Program-made: the position numbers and the translations under genes
Part shown: positions 31,930 through 53,882 of the stretch, in pieces
Numbering within the stretch: position 1 is the stretch's first letter
Layout of the letters: each line of letters opens with the position of its first letter
The notes under the pieces: generated by a model
What the model was told of the DNA's origin: nothing
The model's input: only the letters and a program-made list of their open reading frames with translations
Database searches by the model: none
Source of the DNA: Spirochaetia bacterium
GTDB lineage: Bacteria; Spirochaetota; Spirochaetia; Treponematales; Rectinemataceae
Assembly: GCA_029975555.1 (NCBI GenBank)
Contig: JARKOY010000079.1
Span: 186,001-250,000, forward strand
Direction: 5' to 3'
Length of the DNA stretch: 64,000 nt

Positions 31930-32367
31930 CTATTTTTCTATCACATCCGCGAGTTCAGAGGCAAGAAGGCCGACCGCCTCATCGATGAGCTTCGAAAGCG
32001 GGACAGAGAGCATGCCGGCAAGCGTGAAGTGTGGCTGGTTCACCGGAAGCAATATTTTTTTGCACCGGGCGGCCATGACGGCCTGGGCCATCGCCGGCGT
32101 TATTTCCCCCATCATGGAGTCGGGGAGCACTATTCCGAGAGGGCCGAGAATGACTTGCCCCGTATCGATCGAAACCCGTATGGCGTTTTCACCGCTCGCG
32201 CCGCGGTCGGCGCCCGCCTTCAGTATCTGTTCCGTCGCGGCGGCGTTCGTGCCGAGGGCCACAATTTCGACGCGCGAACCCAAAATTTGTCGGACTTTTG
32301 AGCACAACTGCGCTCCGATGCCTCCGCCGAGCCCGTCGACGACGACAATGATAGGCTTGTTCTGCAT
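31930..32367 (-). CDS. DUF3842 family protein
   Basis: This 145-residue protein begins IIVVVDGLGGGIGAQLCSKV, a nucleotide-binding-like glycine-rich opening. It continues with VEIVALGTNAAATEQILKAGA and the conserved GPIGIV-type segment (GPLGIVLPDSMMGEITPAMA), which match the DUF3842 family of Firmicutes and spirochaetes. Its function is unknown. It has no Shine-Dalgarno, and the promoter (32376-32403) places the start of transcription almost at the ATG, so its mRNA looks leaderless. It is divergent from the sugar-binding protein gene. Its position beyond the metal transporter suggests no direct link. Confidence 0.85.
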   Translation of the reverse strand: MQNKPIIVVVDGLGGGIGAQLCSKVRQILGSRVEIVALGTNAAATEQILKAGADRGASGENAIRVSIDTGQVILGPLGIVLPDSMMGEITPAMAQAVMAARCKKILLPVNQPHFTLAGMLSVPLSKLIDEAVGLLASELADVIEK

Positions 32368-32375
32368 AGAAAAAG

Positions 32376-32403
32376 AATATAGGTAAAATATCCTACCTTG
32401 CAA
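32376..32403 (-). promoter_or_regulatory. Promoter of DUF3842 gene, apparently leaderless
   Basis: On the minus strand, TTGCAA (32403-32398) and TATATT (32381-32376) are 16 bases apart, and only eight bases separate the -10 box from the ATG at 32367. The transcript would start within about two bases of the ATG, and there is no ribosome site. A dyad AGGTA-N8-TACCT (32381-32398) lies between the boxes. Confidence 0.55.
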
Positions 32404-38065: not shown

Positions 38066-38725
38066 ATGTCGATACGACCAACATTCATCGTGGTGGACGA
38101 TCATCCTCTCTATCGTCAGGGGGTGACGACGCTCATCTCCGAGGAACTGCACCTTGAGTGCGTGGGGGAAGCAGGCGGCGTCCCAGAGGCCATAGGGCTG
38201 TTGGCGGCCAAGAGGCCCCGCCTCGCCATTGTGGACATATCCCTCCAGGGACAGAGCGGCCTTGAGCTCATACACTTCATCAAGAATGAATACCCAGAAA
38301 CCCTCGTCCTCGTCGTGTCGATGCATGAGGAGAATCTCTATGGCGAGAGAGTGCTCAAGGCAGGCGCCCGCGGTTTTGTCATGAAACACCAAAGTCCGGC
38401 TATTCTTCTCAAGGCAGTGACGGATGTCCTCGCAGGGCGCCTCGCAGTGAGCGAGGAGCTGAGAGAGCGCCTGCTCGCGGGCGTCGTGGGAGGACGGAAT
38501 GACCCAGATCCTGTGAATAGACTCTCCGACCGCGAACTGGAAGTTTTCACTCTCATCGGAAAAGGATACGGCGCCACCGAGATAGCCGAGAAGTTGGGCA
38601 TCTCAGTAAAGACAGTGAACGCCTACAGAGAACACATCAAGGACAAACTCTATCTGCCCTCGGCAGCCGACCTACGCAAGTTCGCCGTCGAATGGGCCTC
38701 GCGCACGCTTGATTGTGGGGCTTAG
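38066..38725 (+). CDS. LuxR-type (NarL family) response regulator
   Basis: This 219-residue protein has an N-terminal receiver domain, with acidic pair DD at 11-12, phospho-acceptor Asp57 in LAIVDISLQG and Lys near 107 in FVMKHQ. A C-terminal LuxR helix-turn-helix follows (roughly 155-215; LSDRELEVFTLIGKGYGATEIAEKLGIS and VKTVNAYREHIKDKL). It is separated from the kinase by three bases, so the pair is a cognate two-component system. Palindromes in the gap before the GH52 gene are candidate binding sites. Control of the xylo-oligosaccharide transporter and beta-xylosidase is inferred from proximity. Confidence 0.96.
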   Translation: MSIRPTFIVVDDHPLYRQGVTTLISEELHLECVGEAGGVPEAIGLLAAKRPRLAIVDISLQGQSGLELIHFIKNEYPETLVLVVSMHEENLYGERVLKAGARGFVMKHQSPAILLKAVTDVLAGRLAVSEELRERLLAGVVGGRNDPDPVNRLSDRELEVFTLIGKGYGATEIAEKLGISVKTVNAYREHIKDKLYLPSAADLRKFAVEWASRTLDCGA

Positions 38726-38792
38726 GTAAAAAGGCCGATGGTCAAAACGGCAAAAATCCCACTGATCACAGAGGCTCTAAAACTATATGCTG

Positions 38793-38821
38793 TACACGTG
38801 TATCGTTGCACAACGCTGCAA
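38793..38821. promoter_or_regulatory. Candidate regulator sites upstream of the GH52 gene
   Basis: The gap between the response regulator and the beta-xylosidase carries TACACGTGTA (38793-38802), a perfect 10-bp palindrome, and TTGCA-N6-TGCAA (38806-38821), a second perfect dyad. They lie 24-52 bases before the ATG at 38845, the right range for a promoter-proximal regulator. Binding by the adjacent response regulator is inferred. Confidence 0.45.
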
Positions 38822-38844
38822 GACGCCTATGGGGAATCCGATCA

Positions 38845-40944
38845 ATGGAACTACAGAGACATGATATAGATTATTATTCTTTGCACGGTATATGGGGTGC
38901 ATATTCTTCCTTCGTCCTCGGACGCATCGGCCGGGGGGCGGGGGTCGTGGTCGGGGATGTCCGTCCTCCGGAAACAGGTCTTTTTGTTGGGTACCGCGTA
39001 GGGCGAGAAGAGCCTCACCTGTTTCCCTTCTCTTCTGGAAGAAAGTATGGCCTCGGGGCTGCTGCCTACCACGCCGACGAATCGTCCAAGAACATCGATG
39101 AACACTACAGGCGCGCCACATGGTTCAAGCCCGAGGAGATGGAGCGTTTCATATATCTTTCGGGCGAAGAGTGGCGCACGAAACTGATGAGTTTTCGAGT
39201 CTTCTCCTTCTTCGGAGAAGTCCCGGACCCGGCAACTGTCTCGCGGGCTTCGGCCCGTTCGGCCTTCAGACCTTCCATCCTCATTCGGCTCTCGTTCGAC
39301 AACAGCGAGGGCAATGGGCCGATGACGGGCCTCTTCGGCATGCAAGGAATCCGCCGACCCCTCTCGGATTCCACCGATGGAGCCCTTCTCGGCATGGCCT
39401 CCGACGCCTGTTTCGGCTTTGCCGTACACCCCGGCGCCGATGTCGAGGAGGTGATGGATTGGTCCGTGATCGATGCCGCCTTCAACGGCAATCGTTCCCT
39501 CCGCCGTCTGGCTTCCGAGGGGGGCCTACGGTTTACGATAGCTCCTGGGCGTAAGGCCGAGTACATCATTGCGCTGGGGGTCTTCCGCGACGGCATCATA
39601 ACCACAGGGAGACGCGCCTACGCCTACTACACCTGCCTTTTTAAAGATCTCGAGGACGTTCTCGAAAATGCCCTCGACGAGGCGGAAGAATCTCTTTTCA
39701 GAGCCGAGAGGGTGGATGCTCTTCTCGATTCGTCTGGACTCTCGGAGGATCGCCGTTTTCTCTTCGCGCAGGCTGCCCACAGTTATCTTGCCAACACCGA
39801 ACTTCTTCTGTCCGAGACGGGCGAGCCTATTTTTGTCGTAAACGAGGGCGAATACCAGATGATGAACACCCTCGACCTCACCATAGATCAGGCCTTCTGG
39901 GAAGCGCGTTTTTCGCCGTGGACACTGCGCAATGAACTGGAATCGCTGGAGGAATACTCCACCTACGAAGATTCCATGGGCCTCGCTTTTGCGCACGATC
40001 AAGGAGTGGACAACTGTTTTACGCCGCGAGGACGATCGGTATATGAACTGCCGGGACTGACGGACTGCTTCAGCTTCATGAGTTACGAGGAAACCCTCAA
40101 TTGGACGATTTCGGCCTGTCTTTACACGAATCTTACGGACAGCTGGAATTGGGCCCGGGACAAGCGCAAAAGGCTGAGCTCCTGCCTCAGGTCCATCATT
40201 GCGCGCGACGCGAACGGCGACGGAATCATGGACCGAGACTCCGACCGCTGCGAGGGTGGGGCAGAGATCACGACCTACGACTCCCTGGACATCAGCTTAG
40301 GACAGGCGCGCAACAATCTTTACCTGGCCGTAAAGGCGTGGGCTGCCTTCGTCTGCCTTGAAGCTCTTTTCAGAAAGCTCGATGGAAGAGAAACCGAAGA
40401 ATCTAGGGATGCTGCGTCGGCCGCCAGGGCCGCGGCAGCCACCATTGTCGCCAACATGCTCGACCCGGAAGGCTTTATCCCGGCCGTGTTCGAGCGCGAC
40501 AACCGCTCCTGCATCATCCCTGCAATCGAGGGCTTGGCCTACCCCGCCTTCTGCGGCGCCCCGGAGGCCGTTCGCCCCGACGGCCCCTATGGAGAGCTCG
40601 TCCGCGCACTCAAACGGCATGTAGAAACCGTCCTCGTCCCCGGCGTCTGCATCGATGCGTCGTCGGGGGGCTGGAAGCTCTCTTCGACGAGCAACAACAC
40701 GTGGCTCAGCAAAATATTCTTGAACCAGTACGTTGCAGAACAGATTCTGGGCATCAGCGACGAACGCGTGACGCGGGACTCCGTCCATGCTTCATGGCTT
40801 AAGACCGGCAGCGCCGACTTTGCGGCCACCGATCAGGTCGATTCCACGACCGGAAAAGACCTTGGTTCGAGGCTCTATCCCAGGCTCGTCACCTCGATAC
40901 TCTGGCTCGGGCAGATGTCTAGGCAAAACCAGCGCGCTGTATGA
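38845..40944 (+). CDS. GH52 beta-xylosidase
   Basis: This 699-residue protein matches glycoside hydrolase family 52 along its whole length. Recognisable blocks are GEPIFVVNEGEYQMMNTLDL, where a glutamate near 334-336 is the expected nucleophile, and GGAEITTYDSLDISLGQARN, where an aspartate near 479-482 is the expected acid/base. The C-terminal GGWKLSSTSNNTWLSKIFLN is also conserved. GH52 enzymes hydrolyse xylose from the non-reducing end of xylo-oligosaccharides with retention. There is no signal peptide, so it acts in the cytoplasm on imported sugar. The ATG at 38845 has GGGGA upstream and gives the family's usual length. The open frame upstream to 38713 is not used. This assignment anchors the function of the whole locus. 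Confidence 0.95.
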   Translation: MELQRHDIDYYSLHGIWGAYSSFVLGRIGRGAGVVVGDVRPPETGLFVGYRVGREEPHLFPFSSGRKYGLGAAAYHADESSKNIDEHYRRATWFKPEEMERFIYLSGEEWRTKLMSFRVFSFFGEVPDPATVSRASARSAFRPSILIRLSFDNSEGNGPMTGLFGMQGIRRPLSDSTDGALLGMASDACFGFAVHPGADVEEVMDWSVIDAAFNGNRSLRRLASEGGLRFTIAPGRKAEYIIALGVFRDGIITTGRRAYAYYTCLFKDLEDVLENALDEAEESLFRAERVDALLDSSGLSEDRRFLFAQAAHSYLANTELLLSETGEPIFVVNEGEYQMMNTLDLTIDQAFWEARFSPWTLRNELESLEEYSTYEDSMGLAFAHDQGVDNCFTPRGRSVYELPGLTDCFSFMSYEETLNWTISACLYTNLTDSWNWARDKRKRLSSCLRSIIARDANGDGIMDRDSDRCEGGAEITTYDSLDISLGQARNNLYLAVKAWAAFVCLEALFRKLDGRETEESRDAASAARAAAATIVANMLDPEGFIPAVFERDNRSCIIPAIEGLAYPAFCGAPEAVRPDGPYGELVRALKRHVETVLVPGVCIDASSGGWKLSSTSNNTWLSKIFLNQYVAEQILGISDERVTRDSVHASWLKTGSADFAATDQVDSTTGKDLGSRLYPRLVTSILWLGQMSRQNQRAV

Positions 40945-41144: not shown

Positions 41145-41438
41145 TCAGCTGTAGGAATGTATTTTTTCTAGCTCTTTGCTCATCTTCTTTTGTGCTTCTC
41201 GTATATCGAGTTCATTCTGAAGATTTAACCAAAACTTATACGAGTTCCCAAAATACTTCGAAAGTCGCAATGCCATCTCTACTGAGAGTTTTCTTTTGCC
41301 ATGGAGTAAATCCAAGACCGTACTCGTCGATACATTGAGCTCTTTCGAAAGCCTATAGGGGGTAATATGGAATGGTTCAAGGAACTCTTCTCGAAGAATT
41401 TCTCCAATGGTGGGGGTCTCAATATAGTCTTCATTCAT
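41145..41438 (-). CDS. higA: HigA-type antitoxin (Xre family)
   Basis: This 97-residue DNA-binding protein has an HTH of the HigA/VapI type (TPYRLSKELNVSTSTVLDLLHGKRKLSVEMALRLSKYFG) and a C-terminal segment of Lys/Glu-rich helix (RFWLNLQNEL-type: SYKFWLNLQNELDIREAQKKM). HigA neutralises HigB and represses their shared promoter. Here the toxin gene comes first (41452-41733), the usual order for HigBA. The gap between toxin and antitoxin is 13 bases. Base composition is AT-rich, as for many mobile toxin-antitoxin pairs. Confidence 0.93.
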   Translation of the reverse strand: MNEDYIETPTIGEILREEFLEPFHITPYRLSKELNVSTSTVLDLLHGKRKLSVEMALRLSKYFGNSYKFWLNLQNELDIREAQKKMSKELEKIHSYS

Positions 41439-41451
41439 ACTATCTCACCTC

Positions 41452-41733
41452 TCAATGATAATCGATAATAGAAACTTCATACGCATCGCTCCCTTCAAAT
41501 TTGAAAATGATCCTCCATTTATCATTGATTCGAATGGAGCAATACCCTTTCTTCGGGCCTTGTAAATGTTCGAATCTGTTGGATGGCGGTACCATAAAAT
41601 CTTTCTCGGCCGTCGAAGCATCAATCAACAGAAGCTTTATAAGCGCTCGTTTTTGAATCTCGGGAGGAAGTCGTTTGGATTTTTCTTGGTGAAAGATTTT
41701 TTCTGTCTCCGCGTCTCCAAAAGATCGTATCAT
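41452..41733 (-). CDS. higB: HigB/RelE-type toxin (mRNA interferase)
   Basis: This 93-residue protein is a RelE-superfamily toxin of the HigB/GraT group. It shows FGDAETEKIFHQEKSKRLPPEIQ at the N-terminus, LKLLLIDASTAEKDF, and the C-terminal core KGYCSIRINDKWRIIFKFE with basic residues that cut ribosome-bound mRNA in the family. The start at 41733 has no Shine-Dalgarno. The promoter at 41740-41768 puts transcription start almost at the ATG. The pair is probably functional, since both genes are intact. Confidence 0.93.
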   Translation of the reverse strand: MIRSFGDAETEKIFHQEKSKRLPPEIQKRALIKLLLIDASTAEKDFMVPPSNRFEHLQGPKKGYCSIRINDKWRIIFKFEGSDAYEVSIIDYH

Positions 41734-41739
41734 AAACCA

Positions 41740-41768
41740 AATATACCCTATGCAGATATATCTGTCAA
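41740..41768 (-). promoter_or_regulatory. higBA promoter with overlapping operator, apparently leaderless
   Basis: On the minus strand, a perfect TTGACA (41768-41763) and TATATT (41745-41740) are 17 bases apart. Only six bases separate the -10 box from the ATG at 41733, so transcription should start at or next to the first codon. CAGATATATCTG (41753-41764), a perfect 12-bp palindrome, overlaps the -35 box, and a shorter AGATATCT lies at 41771-41778. They are likely HigA operators. Confidence 0.7.
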
Positions 41769-41781
41769 ATAGATATCTTTT

Positions 41782-42441
41782 TTAAGCTTCCACCCCTGCC
41801 AGAATACGGAGCACGGCCAGGGCCTGATGGGACGCGGCGATCATGACGCGGGGCGCGCAGACGCCGGTTTGCCCCTCCGAAGGGGTCACAAAATCGCCGC
41901 AGGCGACGATCCGTTCTGCGAGCCTAACGGTGCGGATTTCGTTGGCAGGTTCAAGCCCTCCCACCCCTGAAGCGGTGACGAGCCAGAGCCCAGGAGGACT
42001 GTGCCGCACAAACCAGGAAAACAGCATGGCTTTCGTGACTGCATCGTCCACTGCTTCGACGAGGACATCGCAGCCGTGGCAGAATTCATCGAGGTCGCGT
42101 TCCTCGATGCGACGGCACCAGAGCTCGAGTTCGACCGAGGGGGAGAGCGTGCGTATCTGCGCGGCGAGGGCGTCGGTTTTTTTCTGCCCTAGATGTCGGG
42201 GGAAGTAGTGTTGGCGGTTCAGGTTCTCGATGGACACTGTGTCGAAATCGGCGAGCCTAAAGGAGGTTACACCCGCCCGCGCAAGCATCATCGCAATGTT
42301 CGAGCCAAGGCCGCCCAGCCCGACGATACCCACACGCTTGCCGGTGATGTTGTGCAAGGCGGGTGGGTTGCGGGCGAGTCGGTCAGATACGGGGAGCTGC
42401 GCGTCCGGTAGAGACGCAGAAGGCGACTTGGCGATGTTCAA
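41782..42441 (-). CDS. thiF: ThiF-family adenylyltransferase
   Basis: This 219-residue protein is an E1-like ThiF/MoeB/HesA enzyme with the nucleotide-binding opening RVGIVGLGGLGSNIAMMLAR and the Asp/Arg/Lys set in LADFDTVSIENLNRQHYF. It adenylates the C-terminal Gly-Gly of a sulfur-carrier protein, here the adjacent ThiS, in the cytoplasm. It lacks the zinc-binding CxxC pairs of many MoeB/ThiF proteins. The start is a TTG at 42441 with GGAGGAGG directly upstream, overlapping the ThiS stop. No other thiamine or molybdopterin genes are next to it, so the pathway served is unknown. Confidence 0.9.
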   Translation of the reverse strand: MNIAKSPSASLPDAQLPVSDRLARNPPALHNITGKRVGIVGLGGLGSNIAMMLARAGVTSFRLADFDTVSIENLNRQHYFPRHLGQKKTDALAAQIRTLSPSVELELWCRRIEERDLDEFCHGCDVLVEAVDDAVTKAMLFSWFVRHSPPGLWLVTASGVGGLEPANEIRTVRLAERIVACGDFVTPSEGQTGVCAPRVMIAASHQALAVLRILAGVEA

Positions 42442-42671
42442 CCTCCTCCGACTGGCAGGTAGATGAAGAGGCGGTCTCCGTCCTTCAGCACCCTTTCATG
42501 GGGCGAACGCTCGTTGTTCACGATGGGAATGATGTATTTGCGGTACGGGCCGATCAGCCCGAGGCGATCCAGCACGCTGGCGGCGGACGTTCCCTCGGGA
42601 AACTCTAAGATAGTGCCCGATTTGACGCCCTCAATGTTCAAAAAACCGAGATACTCGACCGTAATGTGCAT
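42438..42671 (-). CDS. thiS: ThiS/MoaD-type sulfur-carrier protein
   Basis: This 77-residue beta-grasp protein ends in VGGG, giving the C-terminal Gly-Gly that ThiF activates. The segment ILEFPEGTSAASVLDRLGL is typical of ThiS/MoaD. It overlaps the ThiF gene by four bases. An AGGGG site precedes the ATG. Whether it carries sulfur for thiamine, molybdopterin or another product cannot be told, because no ThiG, ThiH or MoaE gene is nearby. Confidence 0.88.
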   Translation of the reverse strand: MHITVEYLGFLNIEGVKSGTILEFPEGTSAASVLDRLGLIGPYRKYIIPIVNNERSPHERVLKDGDRLFIYLPVGGG

Positions 42672-42687
42672 CGCACCCCTCTACTTT

Positions 42688-43719
42688 CTACCACTTGTTC
42701 TGCACGTCTTCGGCTAGGCCGAGCAGCCTGTCCACCTTGAGCTCGCGGCCGTCGTCGAGGATGAGCCGACCCGAATAGTAGCCGAAGAGCTGGTTCTGGA
42801 TCGATGATACGGCGAGCAATTTTATGTCGCTGTGGCGGTTCAAGACAGGCTCGAAGTCCATCTCGAAGCGGCCGTCGCTGCTGGTGATGTTCCATGGAGC
42901 CATATAATCCTTTGGGTCGATGTGAAATTCGATCTCCTCGAGCTTGTGGGCTCTGCCTCCGTAAAACACCATATTTTCCGATGCAGGCGTTCTGTCGGTA
43001 AATCCATACCCGATGTTCCACCCCAGAGGAATGCCTTCGTGCAGTCCAGAGGCCGAACCCCAGTACCAACGATTGTTGTAGAGCCAATATCCCCGACCCC
43101 AGTCTAGCACGCCAAACGAGTCATCAGGCTCGAAAGGATAGTGTTCCTCCCCGATCGTGACCTCGCCGCGTGCGGGCATGCAGTTTATCTTCTGGTTGTA
43201 GTAGAAGGCGCGCCTGTTCTCTTTCCATGAGGTGGCGATGTTCATGCTGTCCGCATCCGGGTCCTGTTCGAGCACAAGATCGCAGGAGAGGCCTTTCCCG
43301 TCACCGAAGGAAGGACAGTGCGCGACAATGCGGCGCTGGCCTTTACCGAGGATATACGAGATGCTCAATTTTTTGTCTTCGTAGTGCAGATCGCCCCGCG
43401 ATGAAGAGGGCGAAAGGCCGGTCCTACCCCGCGGGAGCAGCTTGAGACTGTCCACGGGCGTAAAGCTGCGCCTCTCAAAATCGAGCCAGACGATGTTGCT
43501 CAAGCCCACATAGCCCAGGTCCGAGACCGTACACGCAATGCCGTATCCTCGCTTCTGCGAAAGCACGCAGTAGTAGTCCCATTCTTTGATCCGGTACCAG
43601 GGGGCTTTGATGCGCGACCGGTCATAGTGCCACAGCGGCCGCCTCGCCCAGCCTTCCTCTGTGATGTGTCCTCGATCGTCCAAAAGCTCGATCGGCGAAA
43701 TAATTTCATGTTGACTCAT
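42688..43719 (-). CDS. DUF2804 domain protein
   Basis: This 343-residue protein matches the DUF2804 family: ELLDDRGHITEEGWARRPLW at the N-terminus, SVLDWGRGYWLYNNRWYWGS-type block (FGVLDWGRGYWLYNNRWYWG), and GWNIGYGFTDRTPASENMV. Many aromatic residues suggest a lipocalin-like or carbohydrate-binding fold, but the function is not known. It is the first gene of an apparent operon with ThiS and ThiF, 16 bases upstream of ThiS. The start has no Shine-Dalgarno, and its promoter implies a leaderless transcript. Confidence 0.87.
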   Translation of the reverse strand: MSQHEIISPIELLDDRGHITEEGWARRPLWHYDRSRIKAPWYRIKEWDYYCVLSQKRGYGIACTVSDLGYVGLSNIVWLDFERRSFTPVDSLKLLPRGRTGLSPSSSRGDLHYEDKKLSISYILGKGQRRIVAHCPSFGDGKGLSCDLVLEQDPDADSMNIATSWKENRRAFYYNQKINCMPARGEVTIGEEHYPFEPDDSFGVLDWGRGYWLYNNRWYWGSASGLHEGIPLGWNIGYGFTDRTPASENMVFYGGRAHKLEEIEFHIDPKDYMAPWNITSSDGRFEMDFEPVLNRHSDIKLLAVSSIQNQLFGYYSGRLILDDGRELKVDRLLGLAEDVQNKW

Positions 43720-43726
43720 AATATCG

Positions 43727-43754
43727 ATGATAGCGCAGATGGAATCTAAGTCAA
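43727..43754 (-). promoter_or_regulatory. Promoter of the DUF2804-thiS-thiF operon, apparently leaderless
   Basis: On the minus strand, TTGACT (43754-43749) and TATCAT (43732-43727) are 16 bases apart, and the ATG at 43719 is seven bases after the -10 box. Transcription should start at or within a base or two of the ATG. Confidence 0.6.
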
Positions 43755-44469: not shown

Positions 44470-47400
44470 TCAGAACAGCTCGGGCTGCAAATCCTTCGGT
44501 TTTTTAGGGGTGGTGTGTTCGACCATGGGCACGAGGTCTTCGATCTGGGCGAGGAAGCGGCTGGGCGCGAGGCTGAGCCTACGGCCGAGGAAGCGCCGCG
44601 AGCGGGCCCAAGACAGGTAGAGGCCGACCCTGGCGCGGGTCATCGCCACATAGAGGAGCCTGCGTTCTTCTTCTATTCTTTGATCAACTGTGGTAGCGAC
44701 GCCCTGGCCGCCGCGCTCGGCACTTGTACCGCCGTCGTCCTTTTTCCCCTGGTCAACAGAGCCTCGAGCTTCGAAGAGCGTGAAGGGCAAGATGCCTTCT
44801 TCGAGGCCAGCCACAAAGACGTAGTCGAATTCGAGGCCTTTGGCCGCGTGCATGGTCATGAGCGAGACGCGCTCTCCGTGCGCTTCGTAACCATCTTGAG
44901 GGCTCCCTAGCGCGAGGTCGTCCAAAAATGATGTCACGTCGGCATAGAGGGATGCCTGGGCGACGAGGCGCTCCAGGGAGGATTCGTGGCCGGCGAGTGC
45001 TGGCTTGGATGTCGTGGCGGTCGCGTCGCTCGCGTGCGGGCCCACAAGGTCGATTGCGGCGCGCACGGCCTCGGCGGGAGAAAGCTCAGAAAGCCGCTCG
45101 CGGAGGGCCTTTTCTGCGGTGAGGGGCCGCTGTTGGGGATTGTCTCCTCTCCCCCTCTGCGCATCAGGCCGGACCGCGGCGCGCAGGAGGCTGAGCACCG
45201 ATCGGGCAGGCTCTTCCTCCCACCAGGGCTTGTCTCCGATAAACCTGTAAGGTATGCCGTGGTCGAGGAGTGCCTTCTCAATCGGTGGAGCGAGAGCGGC
45301 TGCGCGGACGAGGATTGCGCATTCGCCGAGGCTCGAGAGCGTCTGGCCTTCCTGAGGAGCGTCGTGCGCGTTTTTGGAAAAGCCAGTGACGCCCGAATCG
45401 ATGGCGAAGAAGCGCGTGCCCCCGATGAGCCTATCTATCTCGCGCGCGATGCCTTCGGCCTCCGATGCTTCGCTCGGGAACTCACACCTCGAGAGCGCGA
45501 CGGCATTTCCAGAGCCGCCGAGTTCAGCTCCCACGAGGCGCCCCGCCGCGCCGATGATGCCTTGAGCGCAGCGGAAACTCCGGACCAGGCGGTAGACGGT
45601 GGCGCCAGGGTAGTCTGTCAGAAAGCGCTCGATGAAACGCCGGTCCGAGCCGCGGAACCCGTAGATCGCCTGATTCGGGTCTCCTATGACACAGATGTCG
45701 GGCGACATGAATTGGGTGTGCGCCGCGATGGGGTTGGGCGCGAGGAGGCGAATCAGCGCATATTGGGCGAAGTTGACATCCTGGTACTCGTCCACGAAGA
45801 TGGCTCGGAAGCGGCTGCGATAGGCCGAAAGCATTTCCGGCTTTGCCGCGAGGAGCCGGACGGTCCCTGCGACGAGGTCGTCGAAGTCGAGGGCATGCGC
45901 TTCCTTGAGTGCGCTTCTATAGTGCGCATATGCCGCATCCAGGTCGGCATCGAAGGGCGGCACGCCGAGCGCCGCGGCCAGTTCGGCGAGCCCCTTAGGA
46001 GCGGCAGGGCCCAGACGAGGCATACGGTCTCCGGGCAGGAGGAGAAAGCGCTTGCGCGCTTCGATGTATGCGGCGAGGCATCGGACGGTCCGAGACCCGT
46101 TGCCAGCGCCGCCCCTGGTGTTCAGCGTCGCTGATTTCAGGAAAGCTTCCTTTTCTTCTTCGGCGAGTACGGTGAAACCGGACGGAAGCCCCGCCTCCGC
46201 CGCGTGCTCTCTCAGCACCGAAAGACAAAACGAGTGGAATGTTGCCGCCGTGATCCGAGCCGCACGCTCTTCGCCCACAGCCCTTTTGATGCGCTCGCGG
46301 AGTTCCGCTGCCGCCTTGTTCGTAAAGGTGATCGCCAGAATCGACGAAGGATCGAATCCGCCTTGCACGAGGCGCGCGATGCGCAGCGCGAGGACTGCAG
46401 TCTTGCCCGTGCCGGGGCCTGCGACGATGAGGGCAGGTCCGCCAGGATGGTTCACCGCCGCTTCTTGCGCGGCGTCGAGGCTGAAAGCGGCCGGGGCGGT
46501 GTGGGCCGTGGCAGAAGCGGAAGGGGAAGCAGCACGAGAAGGCGCCTCTCGCATAACACCACCGACATCGGCCGACGATTCTGATTCTGACGCGCTGACG
46601 GCGTCCAAGGTACAGGCCGCTTTTGCAGCTTCCTCTGAAGCCCTTTTTTCGCTCCGTGGCTCTGCGCCGCTCGCAGCGTGCTGCTCTTGGCTACGCCTTG
46701 CAGATACTCTGCGAGATGGATGAGAATTGTCTCCAGCGTGTGGCGCCTCGGCATCCATCTCGTCATCGAAGAGTCCTACCTTAGCTTTCGGCTCGATCCG
46801 CTCTCCCGGTGCAAAGGCGTGGATGACGCCGTACTCACCGTCGTATCCGGGCTTTATGGAAACCTGACCTGAGCGCATGCGGCCGATGGCCCTGGCCAAA
46901 AGTTCGCCTGAAACTCCGAACATCCCCATCGACTCGATCTCGGATTCACTTCGGTCCATCAGGAGAGAGAGTTCGCAGCCCGCACGTTCCACGAGGCTGC
47001 CGTAGGCGGCAGCGACTTTCTTCGACCCGCTTCCCGTGCCTAAAAGCTCGGCGAGCAGTTCGGGCAAAGGGATGAGGGACCTGTAGGGCCTACGATTCGT
47101 GCCCTCATAGTTCTGAGGGCATGGTTCTGTCTCGTCCACAGGCCTGTCGGCGAGCTCTGCTACGCGGCGCATGACTCCATGGGTGAGCGGTTTGCCGCAC
47201 ACCGGACAGAGCCCCTTGTGCGCGAGGCTCTCTGTGGGGGACATCACCACGCCACAGGCTCGGTGGCCGTCGTAGTGGTATTTGCCCTCCTGGGGGAAGA
47301 ATTCGATTGTCTCCGCGATCCTGCCTGCTGGGCCGCCGCCCGAGAGCGCTTCCGCGAGGCCTGCGAAGGAGGGCTCCATCTCGAAGACCGTCGCCTCGCG

Positions 47401-48114
47401 GCCCAGTTTTTCCGGCGAGTGGGCATCCGAGTTCGATATGATTCCAAAGCGGTCGAGGGAGCTCACCGCCCAGTTCATGGGTGGGTTCGAGGACAGGCCC
47501 GTCTCTATTGCGCCGATGCGGGGCGTGAGGTCGCCGTAACATTCTTCGATGGAGTCGAAGCCGGAGTTTGCGCCGAGGGCAGAGAACCAGGGGGTCCAGA
47601 TGTGGGCCGGCACGAGGATGGAGCGCTCGTCGGCATCCAAAAGCGCGGCGAGAAGCTCTCGCGAGTCCACGCCGAGAATGGGCCTGCCATCGGAGGAAAT
47701 GTTGCCTATTCGCTCAAGCCTGGCCTGGAAGGCGGCCGCGGCTGGGAAATCCGGAAGGATCACGACGTGGTGGACTTTGCGCGTCCTGCCGCCTCGGCTG
47801 TAGATCGTGCTTATTTCTCCCGTGAGGACGAAGTGCACAGGCCTGTCCCCTGAAGGCTCGGGCAAGCCCTCAGCCAGCGCTTGACCCGCATCGAACTCGC
47901 GCCGCAGCTTGGGCTTGAGGCGGAACAAGCCTCCCTCAACCGGCTCAAGCTGTTCTCTGAGCTCCGCGAGCCACGCCGGGTGCGTGCAGTCGCCCGTGCC
48001 GACGAGGTCTATTCCTTTGATGCGCGCCCAGCGTTCCAGGTAGGGCAGCGTGAGCTTGGCGCTCGTGGCGCGCGAGTAGTGTGAGTGGATGTGGAGGTCG
48101 GCGATGATGCGCAT
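44470..48114 (-). CDS. PHP domain fused to UvrD/Rep-type helicase
   Basis: This 1214-residue protein joins two enzymes. Residues 1-430 form a PHP phosphoesterase-like domain (ADLHIHSHYS, DLVGTGDCTHPAW, TGEISTIYSRGGRTRKVHH, GIISNSDAHSPEKLG), with a zinc ribbon (CGVVMSP then CPVCGKPL). A low-complexity linker of about residues 440-545 follows. From about 550 it is a UvrD/PcrA superfamily 1 helicase: Walker A AGPGTGKT (residues 565-572), AITFTNKAAAELRERI, FVDEYQDVNF, GDPNQAIYGFRG, VSLMTMHAAKGLEFDY and LLYVAMTRAR. All helicase motifs are intact. It would work on DNA in the cytoplasm; the role of the PHP domain is unknown. Confidence 0.93.
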   Translation of the reverse strand: MRIIADLHIHSHYSRATSAKLTLPYLERWARIKGIDLVGTGDCTHPAWLAELREQLEPVEGGLFRLKPKLRREFDAGQALAEGLPEPSGDRPVHFVLTGEISTIYSRGGRTRKVHHVVILPDFPAAAAFQARLERIGNISSDGRPILGVDSRELLAALLDADERSILVPAHIWTPWFSALGANSGFDSIEECYGDLTPRIGAIETGLSSNPPMNWAVSSLDRFGIISNSDAHSPEKLGREATVFEMEPSFAGLAEALSGGGPAGRIAETIEFFPQEGKYHYDGHRACGVVMSPTESLAHKGLCPVCGKPLTHGVMRRVAELADRPVDETEPCPQNYEGTNRRPYRSLIPLPELLAELLGTGSGSKKVAAAYGSLVERAGCELSLLMDRSESEIESMGMFGVSGELLARAIGRMRSGQVSIKPGYDGEYGVIHAFAPGERIEPKAKVGLFDDEMDAEAPHAGDNSHPSRRVSARRSQEQHAASGAEPRSEKRASEEAAKAACTLDAVSASESESSADVGGVMREAPSRAASPSASATAHTAPAAFSLDAAQEAAVNHPGGPALIVAGPGTGKTAVLALRIARLVQGGFDPSSILAITFTNKAAAELRERIKRAVGEERAARITAATFHSFCLSVLREHAAEAGLPSGFTVLAEEEKEAFLKSATLNTRGGAGNGSRTVRCLAAYIEARKRFLLLPGDRMPRLGPAAPKGLAELAAALGVPPFDADLDAAYAHYRSALKEAHALDFDDLVAGTVRLLAAKPEMLSAYRSRFRAIFVDEYQDVNFAQYALIRLLAPNPIAAHTQFMSPDICVIGDPNQAIYGFRGSDRRFIERFLTDYPGATVYRLVRSFRCAQGIIGAAGRLVGAELGGSGNAVALSRCEFPSEASEAEGIAREIDRLIGGTRFFAIDSGVTGFSKNAHDAPQEGQTLSSLGECAILVRAAALAPPIEKALLDHGIPYRFIGDKPWWEEEPARSVLSLLRAAVRPDAQRGRGDNPQQRPLTAEKALRERLSELSPAEAVRAAIDLVGPHASDATATTSKPALAGHESSLERLVAQASLYADVTSFLDDLALGSPQDGYEAHGERVSLMTMHAAKGLEFDYVFVAGLEEGILPFTLFEARGSVDQGKKDDGGTSAERGGQGVATTVDQRIEEERRLLYVAMTRARVGLYLSWARSRRFLGRRLSLAPSRFLAQIEDLVPMVEHTTPKKPKDLQPELF

Positions 48115-51980: not shown

Positions 51981-53846
51981 TTACTTCAGGTTCTCCTCTG
52001 TGTAGAGGCTGAGCTCGACCAGGCGCTCCAGAATTTCTTCTTTTGTCGCCTCTGGGAAATTGGCGAGCACGAGTTCTTTGGCGAACAGCCGCGTTATATA
52101 GCGGAGTTTCGTCATGGGCTGGCGCGACGCGTAGATAAAATCCGCGTGGGCATTGTTGATGAAAATGATCGATCGGTCGACGTCGTATCTGGAGCGCCAT
52201 AGTTGACCGGGTGCTTTTTGATAGCTGTAGCCGGGGAGTCCTCGTCGTATCGCTCCTTCTGTTCCCGCTGATCGCTTGACTAGGTTCGCCGTGACCGTGA
52301 CGAGGGCGCTCGCCGCCACGACGATATCCCCCTGGGTGGCTTTCACCTCGATCGTGGTGACGCAGGGTTCCTCCGGCGCCGTATATTCGGCATATATCGA
52401 GTCGACGCCGTCGAGCGAGCCGCCACCTTCGGCGATATGCCAGGCGAAGGAGATATCGTTCTCAACGATGCGTCCTGCGCGATCCCTCGCCACAGCCTTG
52501 AGTTTTTTCCGCTCTCCGACACCGATCACCGAGGAGGCCGGAAAAACATTAAGCTTGTGGAGCGGCCCGGCATACTCAAAAAATTCTTTTTGCACCTTCT
52601 TTGTCTCGAGAGGTTCAGGGATGTATTCGCCAAATGAAGTATCCTCTTTAGATGCCCAGGAGGACTCTTCATCTGCCCCGAAAGGCGGCTGTCCCTCCAG
52701 GGTGCCGGAATCAGACGCATCTACATCCGTACCGACCCTACTTCTGCTGTCGGTCTTGGCGCCCTTCTTGCCGTCGCTGGTTCTGGCCGCGAGCCAGCAG
52801 TAATCCTCGGTGGGCAAGTGGAGAAAGGCTTCGCGAAAGGCGCGCGTGACACGGTGCAATATTTGTCTGCTCACTTCTTCTTCCTCTGCGCGCCGCTGCT
52901 CTTCAAGCAGCTCGTTCAGCGCTCCTTCGACGGGGGCGATGGCGACGCAGAAAGAGTGGAAAGCCTCGTCTTGGACGACGCCGTCCCGTGTTCCCGGCGT
53001 AAGCTGGAGAAACGGCACATCGATGAGCCCTTCGATCTGTCGAGTGTTCCAAGGCGGACGCGAGAAACAGTCGAGGCGAGATATGTCGGGAAGCACGCGC
53101 GTGCCCCGTTTTTGCAAAGCGACCACCGCGTCCTGCGGCGATTCGGCCATATAGAGTTCCAGATAGATCTCGCCGAACGGGCAGTGTGCTTCGGGAAGCC
53201 GATGGATGAGCCTGCCTTTAAATTTGCGCGGTTCGACCACGAGCTCCCGTCGCGACGTATGATCGATGATGCGGATGCGCACGCCGCTTTTCGTGATGCG
53301 GTCGCGGAGCTCGGAGGCGAGGAAGTTTTGGATCTTGTCGCCAGCAAGGGAGCGCACGCCCGGCAGGATAGGGCTTATGGTGAGCTCCGTTCCCTGTCGT
53401 CCGAAGAACGTTTCCGTTTCGCGTATCGCGTAGGACGGGTTACCTTTTACGAGCCGCATGCTCCGCACCACGCCATCTTCTCCGGTGGATGTGAGCGTAC
53501 AGGTTTCTCCCACTGTCCAGAACGAGAGCAGGCCTATCCCGAATTCTCCCTGGATGTCGGTGTTCCCCCTGCGCTTGAGTTCCCGCTTGATGGAATCGCC
53601 GATGTGCGTCGCCACATGGCGGAAATCCTTTATCCCGCAGCCATCGTCGATGACTTTTATGTAGTGCTCGTTTTTCTGTTTGCCGCGGACGATGGTCACA
53701 TTCTTTGCGCCAGCGTCGATGGAGTTCTCCACAAACTCTGCAATGGCTTTGAGCGGGTTGTTCTGCGAAAGCGCGATGATGCTTATGACGTTCCAGTGGT
53801 CGCCGATTTTTAGCTTGCCGGATTCGACGTCGGTTTTCGGGGGCAT
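51981..53846 (-). CDS. GHKL (Hsp90/MutL-type) ATPase with an Ig-like domain
   Basis: About 621 residues. Residues 1-170 are a GHKL ATP-binding domain: AIAEFVENSIDAGAKNV (Glu40, Asn41), VIDDGCGI and IQGEFGIGLLSFWTVGE (glycine-rich lid). A transducer-like region follows. From about 433 to 523 is a bacterial Ig-like segment (LNVFPASSVIGVGERKKLKAVARD...YTAPEEPCVTTIEV). The C-terminus has an unrecognised ~98-residue region. There is no signal or membrane segment. The start is uncertain, since the ATG at 53846 has no ribosome site. A TTGCTT-N17-TATCCT promoter (53854-53882) would start the transcript at this ATG. The function is unknown; MORC-like DNA or defence-related roles are only analogies. 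Confidence 0.85.
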   Translation of the reverse strand: MPPKTDVESGKLKIGDHWNVISIIALSQNNPLKAIAEFVENSIDAGAKNVTIVRGKQKNEHYIKVIDDGCGIKDFRHVATHIGDSIKRELKRRGNTDIQGEFGIGLLSFWTVGETCTLTSTGEDGVVRSMRLVKGNPSYAIRETETFFGRQGTELTISPILPGVRSLAGDKIQNFLASELRDRITKSGVRIRIIDHTSRRELVVEPRKFKGRLIHRLPEAHCPFGEIYLELYMAESPQDAVVALQKRGTRVLPDISRLDCFSRPPWNTRQIEGLIDVPFLQLTPGTRDGVVQDEAFHSFCVAIAPVEGALNELLEEQRRAEEEEVSRQILHRVTRAFREAFLHLPTEDYCWLAARTSDGKKGAKTDSRSRVGTDVDASDSGTLEGQPPFGADEESSWASKEDTSFGEYIPEPLETKKVQKEFFEYAGPLHKLNVFPASSVIGVGERKKLKAVARDRAGRIVENDISFAWHIAEGGGSLDGVDSIYAEYTAPEEPCVTTIEVKATQGDIVVAASALVTVTANLVKRSAGTEGAIRRGLPGYSYQKAPGQLWRSRYDVDRSIIFINNAHADFIYASRQPMTKLRYITRLFAKELVLANFPEATKEEILERLVELSLYTEENLK

Positions 53847-53853
53847 GGTATTA

Positions 53854-53882
53854 AGGATACTTCGGGAAAAGGGTGAAAGCAA
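53854..53882 (-). promoter_or_regulatory. Possible weak promoter of the GHKL ATPase gene
   Basis: On the minus strand, TTGCTT (53882-53877) and TATCCT (53859-53854) are 17 bases apart and seven bases from the ATG at 53846. The boxes are poorer than those of higBA and DUF2804, so this is only a candidate fourth leaderless promoter. Confidence 0.35.

Follow-up and report, generated by a model that had tools for sequence, protein, structure and literature searches.

Promoters positioned at the start codon point to a leaderless minority of genes in an uncultured spirochaete lineage and recur in toxin-first higBA and brnTA modules

Introduction

Leaderless genes are an already known class in spirochaetes and other bacteria. 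Zheng et al. (2011; PMC3160421) defined TA-led genes as those having a TANNNT motif ~12 bp upstream of the start codon and no Shine-Dalgarno (SD) sequence, and, of 18 spirochaete genomes, reported 6 with leaderless genes, at a mean of 3.9% (1.8-6.9%). By dRNA-seq, ~440 mRNAs of Leptospira interrogans have a 5' UTR <10 nt (PMC5243855). Experiments in Deinococcus-Thermus have verified that leaderless genes are driven by a -10 box lying a few bp upstream of the ORF (PMC12340547). Closest to the toxin gene considered below are three toxin-antitoxin (TA) toxin genes of Synechocystis 6803, namely sll1651 and sll1965 (DUF497, i.e. BrnT) and ssl7039 (RelE/gp49, HigB-like), in which the transcription start site (TSS) is the start codon and all of which, as the authors of that work noted, are toxin-first (PMC4963859).

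Here we describe genes of comparable layout in a 64,000-nucleotide stretch of a Spirochaetia genome (hereafter the window) and in its relatives. Their frequency, ~4-6% of genes, matches the spirochaete mean of Zheng et al. (2011) and, taken with the short leaders of Leptospira and the layout in Deinococcus-Thermus, is as expected for the phylum. Several differences deserve mention: the 2011 survey gives no sign of the present uncultured Spirochaetales lineage, for which conservation between species is added here; Leptospira belongs to a distant spirochaete order, and short leaders were measured there whereas they are inferred here; Deinococcus-Thermus uses the layout in ~30% of ORFs, while -35 boxes are frequent in the present genome; and the Synechocystis cases are three loci of one cyanobacterium, whereas the pattern described here spans spirochaete higB and brnT.

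Results and discussion

Four candidate genes in the window

Four genes of the window, higB and those coding for a DUF2804 protein, a DUF3842 protein and a GHKL ATPase, have a -10 box ~6-8 nt upstream of the start codon, which is ATG in all four (Table 1). None of them has an SD, as judged by the absence of AAGG, AGGA, GGAG and GAGG from positions -20 to -5. In sigma-70 promoters the +1 position is the seventh base past the -10 box, and transcription of the four genes would thus begin on or beside the ATG. The earlier note had read this geometry for higB and DUF2804, with six and seven bases to the ATG and without an SD, and the sequence bears it out; these promoters are also the top two promoter-like matches between positions 40000 and 46000, where the remaining four score 9. 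Its suggestion that the GHKL gene has a similar layout likewise holds. For DUF3842 the leaderless-type layout and the lack of an SD stand, but the distance of eight bases does not: a TATATT is present at 8 nt, but the overlapping TATTCT at 6 nt is preferred because orthologues conserve TATTCT or TATCCT at 6 nt. For the same gene, a TTG start at 32403 proposed in the ORF list was rejected in favor of the ATG because it is out of frame in one orthologue (L054). The -35 box is weak in the DUF3842 and GHKL promoters.

Table 1. Features of the window discussed in the text, with promoter boxes given 5' to 3' on the strand indicated
Feature	Coordinates	Strand	Basis and details
Glycoside hydrolase family 52 protein	38713-40944		Pfam E=1.4e-130
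higA antitoxin gene, 97 aa, HTH_3	41145..41438	(-)	Pfam E=3.6e-7; SD-led, GAGAGGTGAG at 41453-41444
higB toxin gene, 93 aa, leaderless candidate	41452..41733	(-)	ATG 41733; PF05015 E=4e-20, residues 4-93
higB promoter, TTGACA-N17-TATATT, 6 nt to ATG	41740..41768	(-)	11/12 consensus; TTGACA 41768-41763, TATATT 41745-41740
Palindrome CAGATATATCTG, overlapping -35 end and spacer of higB promoter	41753..41764	(-)	sequence
Second AGATATCT near higB promoter	41771-41778	(-)	sequence
DUF2804 gene, 343 aa, leaderless candidate	42688..43719	(-)	ATG 43719; PF10974 E=1e-135, residues 3-343
DUF2804 promoter, TTGACT-N16-TATCAT, 7 nt to ATG	43727..43754	(-)	10/12 consensus; TTGACT 43754-43749, TATCAT 43732-43727
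ORF, 1214 aa, by eye resembling a fusion of a PHP-type phosphoesterase with a UvrD/Rep-type helicase	44470-48114
DUF3842 gene, 145 aa, leaderless candidate	31930..32367	(-)	ATG 32367; PF12953 E=6e-47
DUF3842 promoter, TTGCAA-N18-TATTCT, 6 nt to ATG	32374..32403	(-)	TTGCAA 32403-32398, TATTCT 32379-32374
GHKL-ATPase gene, 621 aa, HATPase_c_3, leaderless candidate	51981..53846	(-)	ATG 53846; Pfam E=2.5e-13
GHKL promoter, TTGCTT-N17-TATCCT, 7 nt to ATG	53854..53882	(-)	TTGCTT 53882-53877, TATCCT 53859-53854

From this layout we infer that transcription by RNA polymerase would begin at the A of the ATG or no more than 1-2 nt away, and that ribosomes would bind the resulting 5'-terminal AUG without a Shine-Dalgarno interaction. 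Since the -10 box does not set the start to the base, leaders of 1-3 nt are possible. For the pSYSM higB of Synechocystis, the promoter reading predicts a leader of 19 nt, equal to the 19 nt obtained by TSS mapping (PMC4963859).

Conservation of the distance between box and start codon

The assembly yielded no 16S rRNA gene, and relatives were identified by way of DUF2804; genomes of the same genus are labelled Spirochaetaceae bacterium UBA6089, Spirochaetales bacterium DFE_TRE1 and UBA5556. Comparisons with orthologues revealed that in all four genes the boxes and their distance from the ATG are conserved, while the 6-8 nt linker between them diverges. DUF2804 is a case in point: TTGAC and TATCAT are retained 6-7 nt from the ATG in 9/9 orthologues (68-100% protein identity, two genera), with the linkers cgatatt, aaaagct, cgaaact, cgaaagt, cgaagct, caatttt, attctc, cagatat and ttgaatc. 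More distant DUF2804 genes (57% identity and below) often have SD-led leaders, suggesting that the mode of initiation switches over longer times. The GHKL gene shows GTATCCT 6-7 nt from the ATG in six of the eight loci compared (its own included, and one other genus too), TATAAT at the same distance in another (L069) and no such box in the eighth (L070). For DUF3842, TATTCT or TATCCT at 6 nt is retained in most same-genus orthologues. As an aside, DUF2804 relatives at 50-52% identity are found in Lokiarchaeota and Heimdallarchaeota assemblies (L157-L166), closer than many bacterial ones; inter-domain transfer and mis-binning are both possible.

The same conservation extends beyond these genes. 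The present genome and the sister species G007 were compared over 103 orthologue pairs whose starts agree; 11 are leaderless-like in both, one in each species alone and 90 in neither, such that 11 of the 13 genes that are leaderless-like in either species are shared.

Frequency at the genome scale

We examined 1.25 Mb (38%) of the 3.27 Mb, 179-contig assembly, in which a simple home-made caller without a ribosome-binding-site term predicted 1083 genes and their start codons. An SD motif lies upstream of 61% of genes, against a background of 19%. Among the SD-less ATG genes, 68 of 336 have TANNNT 6-9 nt before the ATG, while dinucleotide shuffles put to the same test gave 20.8 +/- 4.0 (maximum 34). 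By distance, the boxes are most numerous at 6 nt (30 genes), over a background of ~4 per position. Of the 598 SD-led genes, just 10 have such a box at 6-9 nt, though this mutual exclusion is partly trivial because both motifs compete for the same bases. A -35 box (at least 4/6 matches at 16-18 nt spacing) accompanies 48% of the -10 boxes 6-9 nt from the ATG and 45% of those at 10-11 nt, compared with 9% of boxes at 12-14 nt and 16% of those at 20-80 nt. No clear TANNNT excess was seen at GTG and TTG starts (5 vs 2.9 shuffled). The excess comes to 4.4-4.8% of all genes, or, by profile arithmetic, ~6% if gaps of 10-11 nt are counted. The candidates are of all kinds; judged by their N-terminal sequences, they seem to include glycerol kinase, an EF-G, a tRNA thiouridylase and LacI-type regulators.

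The same 6-9 nt peak is seen in the spirochaete genomes G007 and G033 and, more weakly, in the AT-rich G026 (1.9-fold excess). As for the control genomes, E. coli shows no peak (3 vs 3.2 expected) and D. radiodurans MP1 a strong one (10 vs 1.1 expected). The claim of the earlier note that leaderless translation is common in this organism thus survives in part: conservation, shuffles, -35 enrichment, control genomes and the sister species indicate that leaderless expression is real, yet it is a minority mode, and the SD count rejects any dominance of leaderless genes.

Taken together, these observations suggest that sigma-70-type promoters with the -10 box 6-7 nt before the ATG very probably give rise to leaderless mRNAs, as one of two initiation modes of this lineage. 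For the four genes of the window, predicted leaderless mRNAs are well supported by the conserved box-to-ATG distance, the -35 enrichment, the mutual exclusion with the SD and the control genomes. The genes might conceivably be ordinary leadered ones, with the functional mRNA coming from a promoter farther upstream, translation being SD-less (by S1 or an unstructured start) and the box near the ATG incidental or minor. Many SD-less genes indeed lack a -10 box near the ATG, and alternative upstream starts are possible; but the boxes are held at a fixed distance as the flanks diverge, and the -35 enrichment is confined to boxes 6-11 nt from the ATG, which makes this explanation improbable. It is still harder to sustain that the real start codons lie downstream, behind ribosome sites, with the mRNAs being short-leadered: although the start codons are predictions, the Pfam domains of DUF2804 and higB begin at residues 3-4, the first residue of higB homologues coincides with the higB start, the ATG and N-terminus are conserved in orthologues, and the starts of the GHKL and DUF3842 genes agree too. 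Least probable of all is that an AT-rich spacer upstream of start codons yields Pribnow-like boxes by chance. TANNNT is a weak motif and the AT-rich G026 shows only a modest excess, but the observed count is twice the shuffle maximum, the 6 nt maximum is sharp, the boxes come with -35 boxes of their own and they are conserved in the sister species. Chance is hence refuted for the class, though single unconserved genes may still be due to it.

The higBA module and other toxin-first systems

The higB and higA genes lie toxin-first, 13 nt apart, in the domain order of a HigBA module. They would form a single transcript on which the toxin is translated leaderlessly and the antitoxin from its own SD; an SD precedes the antitoxin gene in 45 of 51 homologous higBA loci. 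The palindrome CAGATATATCTG, together with the second AGATATCT, is probably the HigA operator, and the palindrome or near variants of it are found again in many higB loci. Its position within the promoter suggests autorepression, with HigA binding there to repress the module.

At 41 of 56 spirochaete higB loci a near-consensus promoter ends 5-9 nt before the ATG, the gap being exactly 6 in 34 of the 41 and the linkers comprising 37 different sequences. The culturable Treponema succinifaciens DSM 2489 shows the layout at a plasmid-borne higB (L304). After removal of proteins at least 75% identical, 18 of 29 higB loci retain the layout, as against 33 of 934 (3.5%) ATG genes of the present genome under the same rule (Fisher p ~1e-17, a value computed as though loci were independent, although related cassettes are not). 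Outside Spirochaetota, the layout was seen in Desulfosarcina, Rhodovastum, Parvibaculaceae, Marinimicrobia and Cryosericum. It is not a property of higB everywhere: the enterobacterial, Vibrio, Ligilactobacillus and Synechocystis pSYSM genes look leadered. Viral contigs gave one distant higB match, which was excluded from the counts. In the unrelated toxin-first family brnT, the layout occurs in 7 of 15 non-redundant loci and 17 of 26 overall, counts that allowed any in-frame start up to 20 codons away, favoring a match. Two subsets of higB depart from the common spacing. In the subgroup of family f5 (L077, L292, L294, L299 and L301) the leaders are ~9-20 nt long and four of the five have an SD. 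In two loci of genus g89, family f10 (L319 and L320), the ATG follows directly on a -10 box (TATACT/TATAAT), leaving no linker, and the expected transcription start falls inside the gene.

It is conceivable, and we offer it as a tentative reading, that in spirochaetes and certain other phyla the promoter of toxin-first higBA and brnTA modules is held at the toxin start codon, such that the toxin would be made only leaderlessly and the antitoxin via an SD, with this asymmetry setting the toxin:antitoxin ratio and tying toxin synthesis to the state of the ribosome. Alternatively, the distance in higBA might be conserved for no reason other than joint movement of the HigA operator, promoter and gene as one compact cassette, leaderless translation playing no part; this opposes the toxin-antitoxin reading, not leaderless transcription as such. 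TA modules do move horizontally, and one subgroup also shows sequence conservation of the promoter/operator stretch (TTGACAGATATATCTG). Against this, several spacer and operator sequences, along with the 37 linkers, have the 5-9 nt gap in common, brnT has the same gap despite being unrelated, and the f5 loci indicate that a leader is tolerated in higB. We consider the cassette explanation possible but less likely than not. A literature search that covered few subscription journals found no description of leaderless higB across phyla.

Conclusions

A minority leaderless mode is thus conserved in an uncultured spirochaete lineage, as recognized from sequence alone, and starts in this lineage may therefore be misplaced by gene finders built to expect an SD. 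What was not expected is that the layout recurs in toxin-first modules across several phyla. This recurrence allows a test of whether leaderless initiation serves as a device that would keep the toxin below, or conditionally above, the antitoxin, and the f5 higB subgroup provides a naturally occurring contrast for asking what a leader does.
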